Of a stretch of DNA of 64,000 nucleotides, positions 6,524-60,709 are shown in pieces. A program made the translations under genes and the position numbers. Every line of letters begins with the position of its first letter. The stretch's first letter is position 1. Source of the stretch: Henriciella algicola. GTDB taxonomy: Bacteria > Pseudomonadota > Alphaproteobacteria > Caulobacterales > Hyphomonadaceae. The DNA is taken from the NCBI RefSeq assembly GCF_003576245.1, contig NZ_QWGA01000007.1, forward strand, positions 434,001 to 498,000. The letters are read 5' to 3'. A model generated the notes under the pieces. That model saw only the letters and a list, made by a program, of their open reading frames with translations, ran no database searches and was not told the DNA's origin.

Positions 6524-6599
6524 TGGTGGGCGGTAACGGGCTCGAACCGCTGACCCTCTCGGTGTAAACGAGATGCTCTACCAACTGAGCTAACCGCCC
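6524..6599 (-). tRNA. tRNA-Val (anticodon UAC)
   Basis: Read on the minus strand, the 76-nt cloverleaf begins GGGCGGTTAGCTCAG and ends ACCGCCCACCA, giving a perfect 7-bp acceptor stem, discriminator A and an encoded CCA. The anticodon loop is TTTACAC with anticodon TAC, closed by a CTCG/CGAG stem. The T arm contains GGTTCGAGCC. The gene lies immediately downstream of lon's terminator on the same strand. Confidence 0.97.
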
Positions 6600-14915: not shown

Positions 14916-14995
14916 CACTGTCAGAAACACCGCCAGTACACCGTTACTGCACCATGATTTTCCGGGAAACGCGCTGCACTTTCCCGGAGGAAAGT
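14916..14995 (+). repeat. Copy A of a two-copy intergenic element: CACC array plus hairpin
   Basis: Four CACC-type units start at 14916 (CACT), 14928, 14939 and 14950, spaced 12, 11 and 11 bp. After 24 nt comes a perfect hairpin, ACTTTCC (14978-14984) with GGAAAGT (14989-14995) around CGGA. A second copy with the same unit spacing, the same order and the same orientation to its downstream gene lies upstream of ilvD. The bases between units are largely conserved as well, so the copies are related and not merely similar in composition. Copy A fills the space between the sixA-like and nnrD-like genes. Confidence 0.75.
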
Positions 14996-15011: not shown

Positions 15012-15857
15012 ATGACGTCCTCCACCCCTGAGACCAATCACCCCGACCTCTGGCTGCCAGACTGGCCCTGGCCAGAAGCCGACAGCCACAAGCACAAGCG
15101 CGGCTCACTTGGCGTGGTGACAGGCCCGGCTGCCTCAACTGGCGCGGCCCGCCTCGCTGCTCGCGCTGGCCTTCGCATCGGTGCAGGCCTCGCCACCCTT
15201 TTCTGCCCACCGTCTGCAACGCTGGTAAATGCCGCCCACGAGACGGCCGTAATGATCAAGCCGTTCAGCACGCCAGACGCCCTTGCAGAACTGGCATCGA
15301 GCTCAAAATGTGTCCTGATCGGCCCTGCTGCTGGCGTCGATTCGACGACGCGCGAGAACACGCTCGAAGTCCTCAAACATGCAGGCTCCAGCGTCCTCGA
15401 CGCTGACGCGCTGACCGTCTTCAAGGATCAGCCCGACGCCCTCTTCAACGCAATTACACTCCCGGCCGTAATCACACCGCATGATGGCGAGTTCAGCCGC
15501 ATTTTTCCGGGCCTTCTGGACCAGTATACGCGCGCCGAAGCGGCCGCGATTGCAGCTGAGCGCTCAGGCGCAGTTGTCCTTCTGAAGGGCAACGAGACCC
15601 TGATCGCCGCCCCGGATGGCCGCCTAACCGTGAACAGGCATGCCTCGCCCTTTCTTGCCACAGCAGGTAGCGGCGACGTGCTCGCTGGCATGATTGCGGG
15701 CCTTATGGCGCAGGGCATGGAGGCGCACCGCGCGGCCTGCGCCGGTGCCTGGTGCCACGGAGAGGTCGCGCGCCGCGTTGGCCCGGGCCTGATTTCAGAA
15801 GACCTTCCGGACGCCTTGCCCGGCCTGCTCAGCGAATTTTATGCAAGACGCGCTTGA
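15012..15857 (+). CDS. nnrD: ADP-dependent NAD(P)H-hydrate dehydratase (NnrD domain only)
   Basis: This 281-residue ribokinase-like protein is the dehydratase that repairs hydrated NAD(P)H (NADHX/NADPHX) using ADP. The family signatures are present: SLGVVTGPAASTGAARLAARAG near the N-terminus, ITPHDGEFSRIFPG in the middle, and the phosphate-binding TAGSGDVLAGMIAGLMAQG near residue 217. Most bacterial NnrD proteins are fused to the NnrE epimerase; here the epimerase domain is absent and must be encoded elsewhere or be lacking. AAGGG lies 5 nt before the ATG. The CACC array element occupies its upstream region. Confidence 0.9.
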   Translation: MTSSTPETNHPDLWLPDWPWPEADSHKHKRGSLGVVTGPAASTGAARLAARAGLRIGAGLATLFCPPSATLVNAAHETAVMIKPFSTPDALAELASSSKCVLIGPAAGVDSTTRENTLEVLKHAGSSVLDADALTVFKDQPDALFNAITLPAVITPHDGEFSRIFPGLLDQYTRAEAAAIAAERSGAVVLLKGNETLIAAPDGRLTVNRHASPFLATAGSGDVLAGMIAGLMAQGMEAHRAACAGAWCHGEVARRVGPGLISEDLPDALPGLLSEFYARRA

Positions 15858-15906: not shown

Positions 15907-15991
15907 GCGGATGTGGCGAAATTGGTAGACGCACCAGATTTAGGTTCTGGCGCCGCGAGGCGTGGGGGTTCAAGTCCCTCCATCCGCACCA
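15907..15991 (+). tRNA. tRNA-Leu (anticodon UAG)
   Basis: The 85-nt gene starts GCGGATGTGGCGAAATTGG and ends CATCCGCACCA with a 7-bp acceptor stem, discriminator A and encoded CCA. The anticodon loop reads TTTAGGT, anticodon TAG, closed by CCAGA/TCTGG. A long variable arm (GCCGCGAGGC) marks a class II tRNA. Confidence 0.97.
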
Positions 15992-58816: not shown

Positions 58817-60544
58817 TTAGAGATCGGCGTAAACATGGCGCTCGGCCTTGAAACCTTCATGGGTCACGGCGCCCTGATAGGCAGGGCCGACAAGCTTTGC
58901 GAACTTGGCAAGCGCGCCTGAGGCGTATTTCGTCTCCCGCGGGGCCCAGCTCTTGCGGCGCTCTGCAAGCTCAGCTTCGCTGACCTCAAGATCGATCGTG
59001 CCGGTTGCGGCATCGATAGAGATCATGTCGCCGTCCTTAATGAGGCCGATGGGCCCGCCTTCCTGCGCTTCCGGCCCGACATGGCCGATACAGAAGCCGC
59101 GCGTCGCGCCGGAGAACCGGCCATCTGTGATCAGCGCGACTTTGTCGCCCATGCCCTGACCGTAGATTGCAGCCGTCGTCGACAGCATCTCGCGCATGCC
59201 TGGGCCACCCTTCGCGCCTTCATAGCGGATGATCAGGACGTCGCCTTCCTTGTAGTCACGCGACTCCACGGCCTTGAAGCAGGCCTCCTCACCATCGAAG
59301 ACGCGGGCCGGGCCGCGGAACTGAAGCGAGTGGAGACCCGCAACCTTCACAATGGCGCCGTCTGGCGCGAGTGAGCCCCAAAGGCCCACCACACCGCCGG
59401 TCTTGGTGATTGGCGTGCTGGCTGGAGAGATCACTTTCTGCTCAGGATTCCAGGTCACCTCTTCAAGGTTTTCGGCCCATGTCTTCCCGGTCACCGTGAT
59501 ACAGTCACCGTGGATAAGACCCTCTTCCAGAAGGGTTTTCATCAGCATCGGCACGCCGCCTGCCTCACCAAAATCCTTGGCGACATATTCACCGCCCGGC
59601 TTTAGCGAGGCGATGTAAGGCGTCTTCTCGAAGATACGGGCCACGTCCTTCAACTCGAAATCGACGCCGCATTCATTGGCCATGGCTGGCAGGTGAAGCG
59701 CTGCATTGGTCGAGCCGCCGGTTGCGGCGACGACGACAGCTGCGTTTTCAAATGCCTTGCGCGTACAGATGTCGCGCGGGCGCAGATTGGTCTCAATGAG
59801 GCGCATAACAGCCTCGCCAGAGGCAACGGCGTACTCATCGCGGTTGGCGTAAGGCGCTGGCAGCGCGGATGAAAGCGGCAGGGCGAGACCGATTGCTTCG
59901 GAGACGCAAGCCATTGTATTTGCAGTAAATTGACCGCCGCACGCCCCATCGCCCGGACAGGCGAGTTTCTCCAGCGCGTGGAGCTTTTCCTCGGTCATGT
60001 CATTATTGCCTGCCGCATGCGCGCCAACCGCTTCGAAAACGTCGAGAACGGTCACGTCCTTGCCCTCAAACCGGCCCGGCAGGATAGAACCGCCATAGAG
60101 GAAGACCGATGGCACGTTGAGGCGCAGCATGGCCATCATCATGCCCGGCAGCGACTTGTCACAACCCGCAACGCCAACAAGCGCATCATAGCCGTGGCCG
60201 CGCATGGTCAGCTCGACGGAATCTGCAATGACTTCACGCGAAACGAGCGATGAGCGCATGCCTTCATGGCCCATGGCGATGCCGTCTGTGACTGTGATCG
60301 TACAGAATTCACGCGGGGTGCCATCGCCAGCTTTGACGCCTTCAGAAACCGCATGGGCCTGTCGCATCAGGGCGGTGTTACAGGGGGCCGCTTCATTCCA
60401 GCAGGAGGCGACGCCGACGAAGGGCTTCTTGATGTCCTTGGTCGACAGGCCCATTGCGTAATAATAGCTGCGATGCGGGGCGCGGGCCGGGCCTTCGGTG
60501 ACGTGGCGCGACGGCAGGCGTGACTTGTCCCAGGTCTTGCTCAT
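58817..60544 (-). CDS. ilvD: Dihydroxy-acid dehydratase
   Basis: IlvD makes 2-oxo acids in valine, leucine and isoleucine synthesis, using an iron-sulphur cluster. The 575-residue protein has the three cluster cysteines C55 (APCN), C128 (GCDKSLPGMMMA, with Lys130) and C202 (ACGGQFTANTMA). It is of the long type with the 2Fe-2S-like cysteine set. GAGGAG precedes the ATG. Its 186-nt upstream region holds copy B of the CACC array element. Confidence 0.96.
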   Translation of the reverse strand: MSKTWDKSRLPSRHVTEGPARAPHRSYYYAMGLSTKDIKKPFVGVASCWNEAAPCNTALMRQAHAVSEGVKAGDGTPREFCTITVTDGIAMGHEGMRSSLVSREVIADSVELTMRGHGYDALVGVAGCDKSLPGMMMAMLRLNVPSVFLYGGSILPGRFEGKDVTVLDVFEAVGAHAAGNNDMTEEKLHALEKLACPGDGACGGQFTANTMACVSEAIGLALPLSSALPAPYANRDEYAVASGEAVMRLIETNLRPRDICTRKAFENAAVVVAATGGSTNAALHLPAMANECGVDFELKDVARIFEKTPYIASLKPGGEYVAKDFGEAGGVPMLMKTLLEEGLIHGDCITVTGKTWAENLEEVTWNPEQKVISPASTPITKTGGVVGLWGSLAPDGAIVKVAGLHSLQFRGPARVFDGEEACFKAVESRDYKEGDVLIIRYEGAKGGPGMREMLSTTAAIYGQGMGDKVALITDGRFSGATRGFCIGHVGPEAQEGGPIGLIKDGDMISIDAATGTIDLEVSEAELAERRKSWAPRETKYASGALAKFAKLVGPAYQGAVTHEGFKAERHVYADL

Positions 60545-60621: not shown

Positions 60622-60709
60622 TTTCCGCCGGAAAGTGTGCGAAAAATTCTGCCCTTTTGCCCTCAAAACACGGTGCAGTGACGGTGTACCGGCGGTGTTT
60701 TTGACGGTG
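60622..60709 (-). repeat. Copy B of the CACC array plus hairpin, upstream of ilvD
   Basis: On the plus strand GGTG occurs at 60672, 60683, 60694 and 60706, spaced 11, 11 and 12 bp, which on the ilvD strand is CACC with spacing 12, 11, 11, the same as copy A. After 35 nt (copy A has 24, a difference of one helical turn) TTTCC and GGAAA pair around GCC at 60622-60634. Roughly four fifths of the bases of the array match copy A. It begins 21 nt after the stop of the upstream GNAT gene, on its strand. Confidence 0.75.

Follow-up and report, generated by a model that had tools for sequence, protein, structure and literature searches.

Direct repeats of 11 bp, each with a short core and a spacer, form the boxes of PhoB/OmpR-type regulators, and 11-bp direct repeats also act as partition sites in the parC/ParR system, whose iterons, like parS, occupy one locus per plasmid or a place near ori. 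The matS motif, which belongs with MatP in the Ter macrodomain of E. coli, is short and palindromic and is found in 23 copies, within Ter only. Its influence has been reported to extend over several tens of kb (PMC3116907). Noc and SlmA also act at tens of chromosomal sites, around 70 NBS for the former and around 24-52 SBS for the latter (PMC4726725); both are palindromes under-represented near the terminus. Direct repeats are the target of BldC, which forms head-to-tail oligomers on variable numbers of them (PMC6428758) and at one promoter occupies one DNA turn per molecule (PMC11963761); the repeats are AT-rich (9 bp long at whiI) and lie at regulated promoters. Finally, 169 sets of TAACTGA direct repeats, some of them within ORFs and with an unknown binder, have been described in one Beggiatoaceae genome (PMC4679880); in the part of that paper at hand these are 7-mers lying mostly just 5' of start codons, and neither unit turnover nor even spacing is described there.

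The arrays presented here, from Henriciella algicola, can be set against each of these systems. They resemble matS in being dispersed, sequence-specific chromosomal sites, and NBS and SBS in occurring at tens of places, but they differ from all three in that they are direct repeats and not palindromes (which would also be the expectation for ParB/parS) and in that, in contrast to matS, they are found chromosome-wide. With parC they share the 11-bp direct repeat but not the single locus, as there are about 33 dispersed ones. The variable number of repeats recalls BldC, and binding to the arrays may likewise be head to tail; in contrast to the BldC system, the carrier genome G002 has no HTH_17 (BldC-like) protein at E<=0.001, the carriers searched being G017, G002, G018 and G011. 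From PhoB/OmpR boxes the arrays differ in being evenly spaced on the chromosome and in that none of the Trans_reg_C proteins compared has a matching distribution.

Array copies in the window and in the genome

The window, that is, the whole 64,000-nucleotide stretch that was analysed, corresponds to C1:434001-498000 of a 3.2 Mb genome in 8 contigs (G000). In copy A of the array (14916..14953, plus strand), the units begin at 14916 (CACTGTCAGAAA, 12 bp), 14928 (CACCGCCAGTA), 14939 (CACCGTTACTG) and 14950 (CACC); the CACT at the first position, the CACC at the other three and the steps of 12/11/11, all reported by a sequence-only reading of the window, are directly visible. The same layout, as that reading had also stated, is found in copy B (60672..60709, minus strand), made of the minus-strand units CACCGTCAAAAA, CACCGCCGGTA, CACCGTCACTG and CACC. 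The neighbouring ORFs keep the names given in that reading: an nnrD-type gene (15012..15857, plus strand) by copy A, and ilvD (58817..60544, minus strand), upstream of which copy B lies. The two copies have a 27-mer in common; it is found twice in the window, and 100 shuffled sequences never contain it. A model of the array (R1, see below) matches copy A with E=4e-13 (at G000:C1:448915) and copy B with E=3.1e-13. Copy A has orthologous arrays in G013 and G002, and its counterpart in G021, which is written in another unit sequence or dialect, yields only a weak match (E=0.0035). At the position of copy B, the ilvD locus (an ilvD homologue being present in 29 of 29 genomes of the genus), an array is found in seven genomes of the CACCG dialect and, by eye, in seven more with other dialects.

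The initial notion of a two-copy element had to be abandoned when the whole genome was considered. The pattern CACCG-N6-CACCG-N6-CACC, with one mismatch at most, has 56 matches in G000, many of which overlap one another, whereas the pattern read in reverse has 2, and a two-copy duplication was consequently rejected. The search of the genome and its relatives suggested in the sequence-only reading thus gave the opposite of two copies without conservation. Model R1, a sequence-only model of 49 positions, was built from G000 and G013 arrays using 35 sequences picked by hand out of 49, four loci having been dropped by hand beforehand, together with one duplicate. At E<=1e-3, and with overlapping matches merged by hand, it locates 33 sites in G000; for G017, whose chromosome is complete, the number is 31. 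Weak matches appear in G003 (one, E=0.014), G011 (one) and G008 (two), those of the last two genomes with E>=0.028, and at E<=0.1 none is found in G009, G021, G018, G025 and G001, which have other dialects or are array-less. A second model (R2, for the GGACTG dialect) was derived from 13 sequences on the strand opposite to that of R1, which leaves the positions unaffected. The arrays comprise about 3-7 tandem units of ~11 bp, CACCGYCANTR, in which CACCG is followed by Y and a variable spacer, and a 12-bp unit ending in AGAAA often stands in front. No report of this element was found in the open-access literature, most subscription papers lying outside the search.

The sequence-only reading had also joined a hairpin to the array and attached weight to the distance between the two, 24 versus 35 nucleotides. 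The hairpin region of copy A (14959..14995, plus strand) folds somewhat better than shuffled sequences (z -1.8; 7 of 200 shuffles fold equally well), whereas copy B does not fold better than its shuffles (z 0.05), and the corresponding ACTTTCCGGCGGAAAT segment (60622..60640, minus strand) belongs to a conserved region upstream of ilvD and has no hairpin element in common with copy A. In the copy A orthologues of G013 and G002, ACTTTCC is kept but the opposite paired arm is lost. On the basis of these folding scores and comparisons, the hairpin was rejected as a component of the array, and, since it is not conserved, the difference in distance has no clear meaning. The 14959..14995 region probably lies outside the element and may be a promoter serving the nnrD-type gene; by eye it resembles a -35 region. 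The folding of copy A with its flank would be in keeping with a structured RNA, such as a leader, an attenuator or a binding array in the transcript, which was another of the initial proposals. This is disfavoured because the arrays may point either way with respect to the flanking genes and some are within coding sequence; in addition to the z value of copy B, the only matches to Rfam at gathering scores in the window are two tRNA genes (6527-6599, minus strand, and 15907-15988, plus strand), and we regard an RNA element as highly improbable.

Spacing, position and dialects

The arrays are far more evenly spread along the chromosome than chance would produce, although the spacing is not absolute. 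At E<=1e-3, the 33 sites of G000 define 28 within-contig gaps, with a minimum of 41.6 kb and a CV of 0.47, and the 31 sites of G017 have a minimum gap of 45.8 kb and a CV of 0.53. With sites placed at random, the smallest gap has a median of 2.3-2.4 kb, and in neither genome were the observed minima reached in any of 20,000 simulations (P for the CV, 0.00005 and 0.00015, respectively). The distance from copy A to copy B, 45.7 kb, is the second smallest gap of G000 at this cut-off. With E<=0.01, each genome has 36 sites and the minima are 41.6 kb in G000 and 30.0 kb in G017, again with 0 of 20,000 simulations in each case. When the cut-off is loosened to E<=0.1, a pair of weak matches only 3.0 kb apart enters the G000 set, and its minimum gap is therefore no longer unusual (P=0.26), but the CV is still 0.50 (0 of 20,000) and the G017 minimum remains at 30.0 kb. 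These tests rest on plain E-value cut-offs; a 34-site test of G017 had three weak matches added by eye.

Since G000 and G017 are close relatives with common array positions, they do not represent independent tests, and G018 is a more independent one. Its own-dialect model finds 28 sites at E<1e-3 with a smallest within-contig gap of 20.8 kb (P=0.008, contigs without known length having been set in the simulation to the last site plus 50 kb), and five of the gaps measure 21-29 kb. For G002, R1 at E<=1e-3, 0.01 and 0.1 yields 12, 17 and 28 sites, with P values of 0.019, 0.013 and 0.012 for the minimum gap and of 0.12, 0.44 and 0.010 for the CV; the weak matches of the last set add a pair 17.8 kb apart. 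The test is weaker here, in a dialect other than that of the G000-trained model. With 27 places (26 pattern matches plus one model match), the minimum gap of G002 is 41.3 kb (0 of 20,000) and the CV is 0.59 (P=0.00125). The arrays of G017 lie in both halves of the chromosome, with mean gaps of 83 versus 109 kb, and spacing shows no significant correlation with the distance from parB (Spearman P=0.26), so that, in contrast to the Noc and SlmA sites, there is no significant trend away from parB.

The places of the arrays are largely conserved. Against the 22, 27 and 12 arrays fetched from G013, G002 and G004, respectively, an alignment to at least one array locus (summed score >80) was obtained for 29 of the 32 arrays of G000; the exceptions are L031, L034 and L036, and 28 of the 32 align at a score >300. 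Even across dialects, a flanking gene is common with CACCG-dialect array loci in 8 of 12 fetched GGACTG-dialect loci (E<1e-3) of G018 and in 5 of 8 of G021, one of these five resting on a family-B stretch only (see below). The strand of the array relative to the gene is kept in 14 of 14 comparisons, made at 12 places, of which two were represented by two species. A flipped relationship between GGACTG and CACCG arrays, which would have unified them as ACMGYC, had been considered and was rejected, as in all 14 comparisons the strand taken to be equivalent proved to be the opposite one; the core common to both dialects is, by eye, AC[CT]G. Matches to ACMGYC, in its mistaken orientation, were obtained in 13 of 299 genomes of the order and have little bearing on other genera.

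The surroundings of the arrays are heterogeneous. According to a crude gene finder, a gene is predicted to begin no more than 250 bp away, on one strand or the other, for 19 of the 33 printed arrays; 16 are overlapped by a predicted ORF (some of these predictions surely not being genes) and 2 lie between converging predictions, these categories overlapping. Inspection by eye of the ~33 neighbourhoods revealed no common functional theme, and the redox link first drawn from NAD(P)HX repair and ilvD thus concerns just two of them. As some arrays fall in coding sequence, a repeat coding for a peptide (frame TPPVHR) was also considered; it was rejected because no single frame is kept and many arrays are non-coding. 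For instance, the frame used in the Smr-like protein at L025 differs from that in the families A and B mentioned below (frames and the Smr name assigned by eye).

The units differ between species. They are CACCGCCAGTA/CACCGTCACTG in G000 and its relatives, CACCGCCCAGA/CACCGTCCAGA in G002, CACCGTCCATG/CACCGCCCATG in G004 and, by eye, GGACTGTTTYC in G018 and G021 and of the TCGGCCTG type in G025, with other CACC- or TACC-containing units in G008, G009 and G011. For the variable part of the unit, the mean number of differences was compared between species at the same locus and between different loci inside each species. Between G000 and G013 (22 pairs), they amount to 0.48 at the same locus and to 1.80 and 1.84 within the species. 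At larger distances the picture changes: G000 and G004 (10 pairs) show 2.14 at the same locus versus 1.54 and 1.47 within species, G000 and G002 (23 pairs) show 2.60 versus 1.70 (G000) and 2.62 (G002), and G002 and G004 (9 pairs) show 2.38 versus 2.65 (G002) and 1.39 (G004). In unit sequence, therefore, the G000 and G004 sites are closer to the other sites of their own species than to their orthologues, as would be expected if one trans factor reads all of them. On the G002 side such concerted change is absent (2.62 within the species versus 2.60 with G000, and 2.65 versus 2.38 with G004). Unit sequence thus tends, as judged from these comparisons, to shift together within a species, in a partly concerted manner. 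At the longer distance of the GGACTG dialect, unit replacement is complete and the places are unchanged.

Carrier genomes and linked protein families

The strict pattern has 27-35 matches in 7 of the 29 genomes of the genus and 1-2 in two more; outside the genus, 2 of 72 genomes match, with 1 and 6 matches. When the other dialects at the ilvD locus are included, by eye, the carriers amount to 14 of 29, and they form one clade: in an ilvD tree the 14 are separated from the rest by a branch supported at 100/99. Henriciella marina (L267) has a four-unit array. A scan of nine genomes with a two-mismatch pattern remained near the control level in most. Generic four-unit patterns gave mostly scattered hits among the matches listed for genome contigs, two Henriciella records being included, and 26 stretches in viral contigs, mostly scattered as well. 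Apart from these, the generic CACCG pattern was observed at no fewer than six loci of Proteobacteria WY4.bin28 (L185, L209, L227, L250, L280 and L288, at least) and at five or more of Paludibacteraceae RGIG5024 (including L181, L195, L225, L273 and L292). A motif-blind search for four-unit arrays in 400 kb of the array-less G028 produced none at a threshold that recovers, over 200 kb of G017, 3 of the 4 sites given by the model at E<=1e-3, and neither copy of the window. Below that threshold, G028 has a fourfold GGCG-N7 11-bp repeat (L523:8565-8710), possibly a lost or a different array.

The arrays are accompanied by a small protein, family B, of ~100 aa, with a Trp-rich start and GRI.IT and APW.RL motifs, which is present in 1-10 copies per carrier and usually has an array at one end (examples are L005, L007, L018, L021 and L033 in G000, L082 and L084 in G002, and L151 in G009). 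It has no convincing match in Pfam, NCBIfam, PHROG or PDB. With a query alignment drawn from five of the carriers (alignment A3 leaving out L060 and L066, each with an internal stop), strong matches (best E of 8e-23 or better) are found in exactly the 14 carriers; the other 15 genomes of the genus have none (12) or weak ones (3, at 5e-7 or worse), and of 32 genomes from outside the genus, 3 show weak matches (best 1.3e-10, in G036). All strong copies of G017 (6/6) and G000 (7/7) lie within 65 bp of an array match, two of these matches being weak, with E=0.009 and E=0.056. In G002, a model or pattern match is present within 200 bp for 7 of 10 strong copies. In both G017 and G000 there is also a weak copy with no adjoining array. 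Beside family B, 11 bp is the best period at G021 L486-L488, at G025 L496, L499 and L500 and at G008 L501, and it is not the best at 3 G002, 6 G011 and 2 G025 loci. In G022 there are 22 weak, diverged family-B-like copies, with no clear 11-bp array at the 12 loci inspected, and G036, of another genus, has 11 weak copies and likewise no clear array at the 6 loci inspected. Another family (A, with a LLRRLLVLMAA motif) includes L001, L032 and L037 in G000 and L170 in G011; in the G000 copies the array is inside the coding sequence.

Possible role of the arrays and rival explanations

These observations could be integrated by assuming that the arrays are the binding sites of an oligomerising protein, forming ~33 sites for chromosome organisation, anchoring or segregation, an explanation to which we give about even credence. 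A putative sequence-specific protein would assemble head to tail, with each 11-bp turn taking up one molecule; the ~33 sites, kept roughly 42-257 kb apart, would each serve their own stretch of chromosome, and each would act in organising, anchoring or segregating it and not in transcription. Even spacing, neighbours without a theme, indifference to strand, locations within coding sequence and conserved places all point to a job that is counted in chromosome length, while tandem units at one helical turn point to a protein that assembles lengthwise on the DNA in the manner of BldC. From this we infer a single reader protein, its oligomerisation and a chromosome-organising rather than a transcriptional role, and the arrays suggest anchor or packaging sites over ordinary gene switches. 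What runs counter to this explanation is that many arrays are near predicted gene starts and that no binding protein was found among the classes searched. A broader version, in which whole-chromosome, iteron-like anchors arose in one Henriciella clade, with a fast-evolving partner rewriting ~30 sites in place and family B as a component, is held only tentatively.

The arrays might instead be the sites of an ordinary global transcription regulator, of the OmpR/PhoB type or of another class, acting on the next genes. The 11-bp direct repeats expected of OmpR/PhoB-type sites are present, such repeats suit winged-helix (wHTH) response regulators, and the 19 of 33 arrays close to a predicted gene start fit this possibility, but the even spacing with a minimum gap of 41-46 kb is unexpected of a regulon, and so are arrays inside coding sequence or between converging genes. 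Furthermore, seven of the eight Trans_reg_C proteins of G000 are represented by orthologues in G001, which has no arrays, and likewise in G002, G018 and G021; their putative recognition helices are near-identical across dialects, and no Trans_reg_C protein tracks the arrays when G000 is compared with these four genomes. Thus, of the OmpR/PhoB proposal of the sequence-only reading, the structural part (sites in double-stranded DNA, arranged in tandem with a unit for each helical turn) stands as the best reading of the structure, whereas the class of regulator finds no support, and we consider a transcription regulator unlikely. The eighth Trans_reg_C protein, the OmpR-family L331 (G000:C2:203979-204206), has no orthologue in the other four genomes searched.

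Less probable still, in our view, are remains or parts of a mobile element with target immunity, carrying family B as cargo. Target immunity would produce a minimum gap, and family B is multi-copy and mostly located at arrays (6/6, 7/7 and 7/10 copies in G017, G000 and G002), but insertion gives no account of position and strand being kept across species while the unit is replaced. In addition, no transposase was recognised by eye in the flanks inspected, where one neighbour resembles a XerC-type recombinase, and a query with one family-B protein (E<=0.01) matched none of 72,556 plasmid and 50,697 phage records. Species-specific dialects would also be natural for self-recognition signals in DNA uptake or transfer; known uptake sequences far exceed ~33 copies per genome, however, and neither tandem arrays nor even spacing are called for by such a function, which we therefore judge very improbable.

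Should the broader version of the chromosome-organising explanation be correct, the arrays would be the bacterial counterpart of numerous small centromere-like sites that co-evolve. The regular spacing of a conserved site along the chromosome offers direct sequence evidence of a handling scale of tens of kb, usually inferred only from contact maps, and the dialects amount to a natural experiment in which a DNA-binding protein changes along with the whole set of its sites. In Hyphomonas neptunium, of the same family (Hyphomonadaceae), a second segregation step through the stalk is described in the available part of one report as having an unknown mechanism (PMC6650430), which makes sites such as these, in the same family, worth testing.

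The five carriers searched each have at least one further ParB_N match, and the non-carrier G001 has none at E<=0.001. None of the ParB_N proteins compared is common to all five, three matches in G018 and a weak one in G000 being left out of the comparison. Those compared fall into one group of 606-714 aa, with L398 (G017), L397 and L402 (G018) and L399 (G021), and another of 434-442 aa, with L400 (G000) and L401 (G002).
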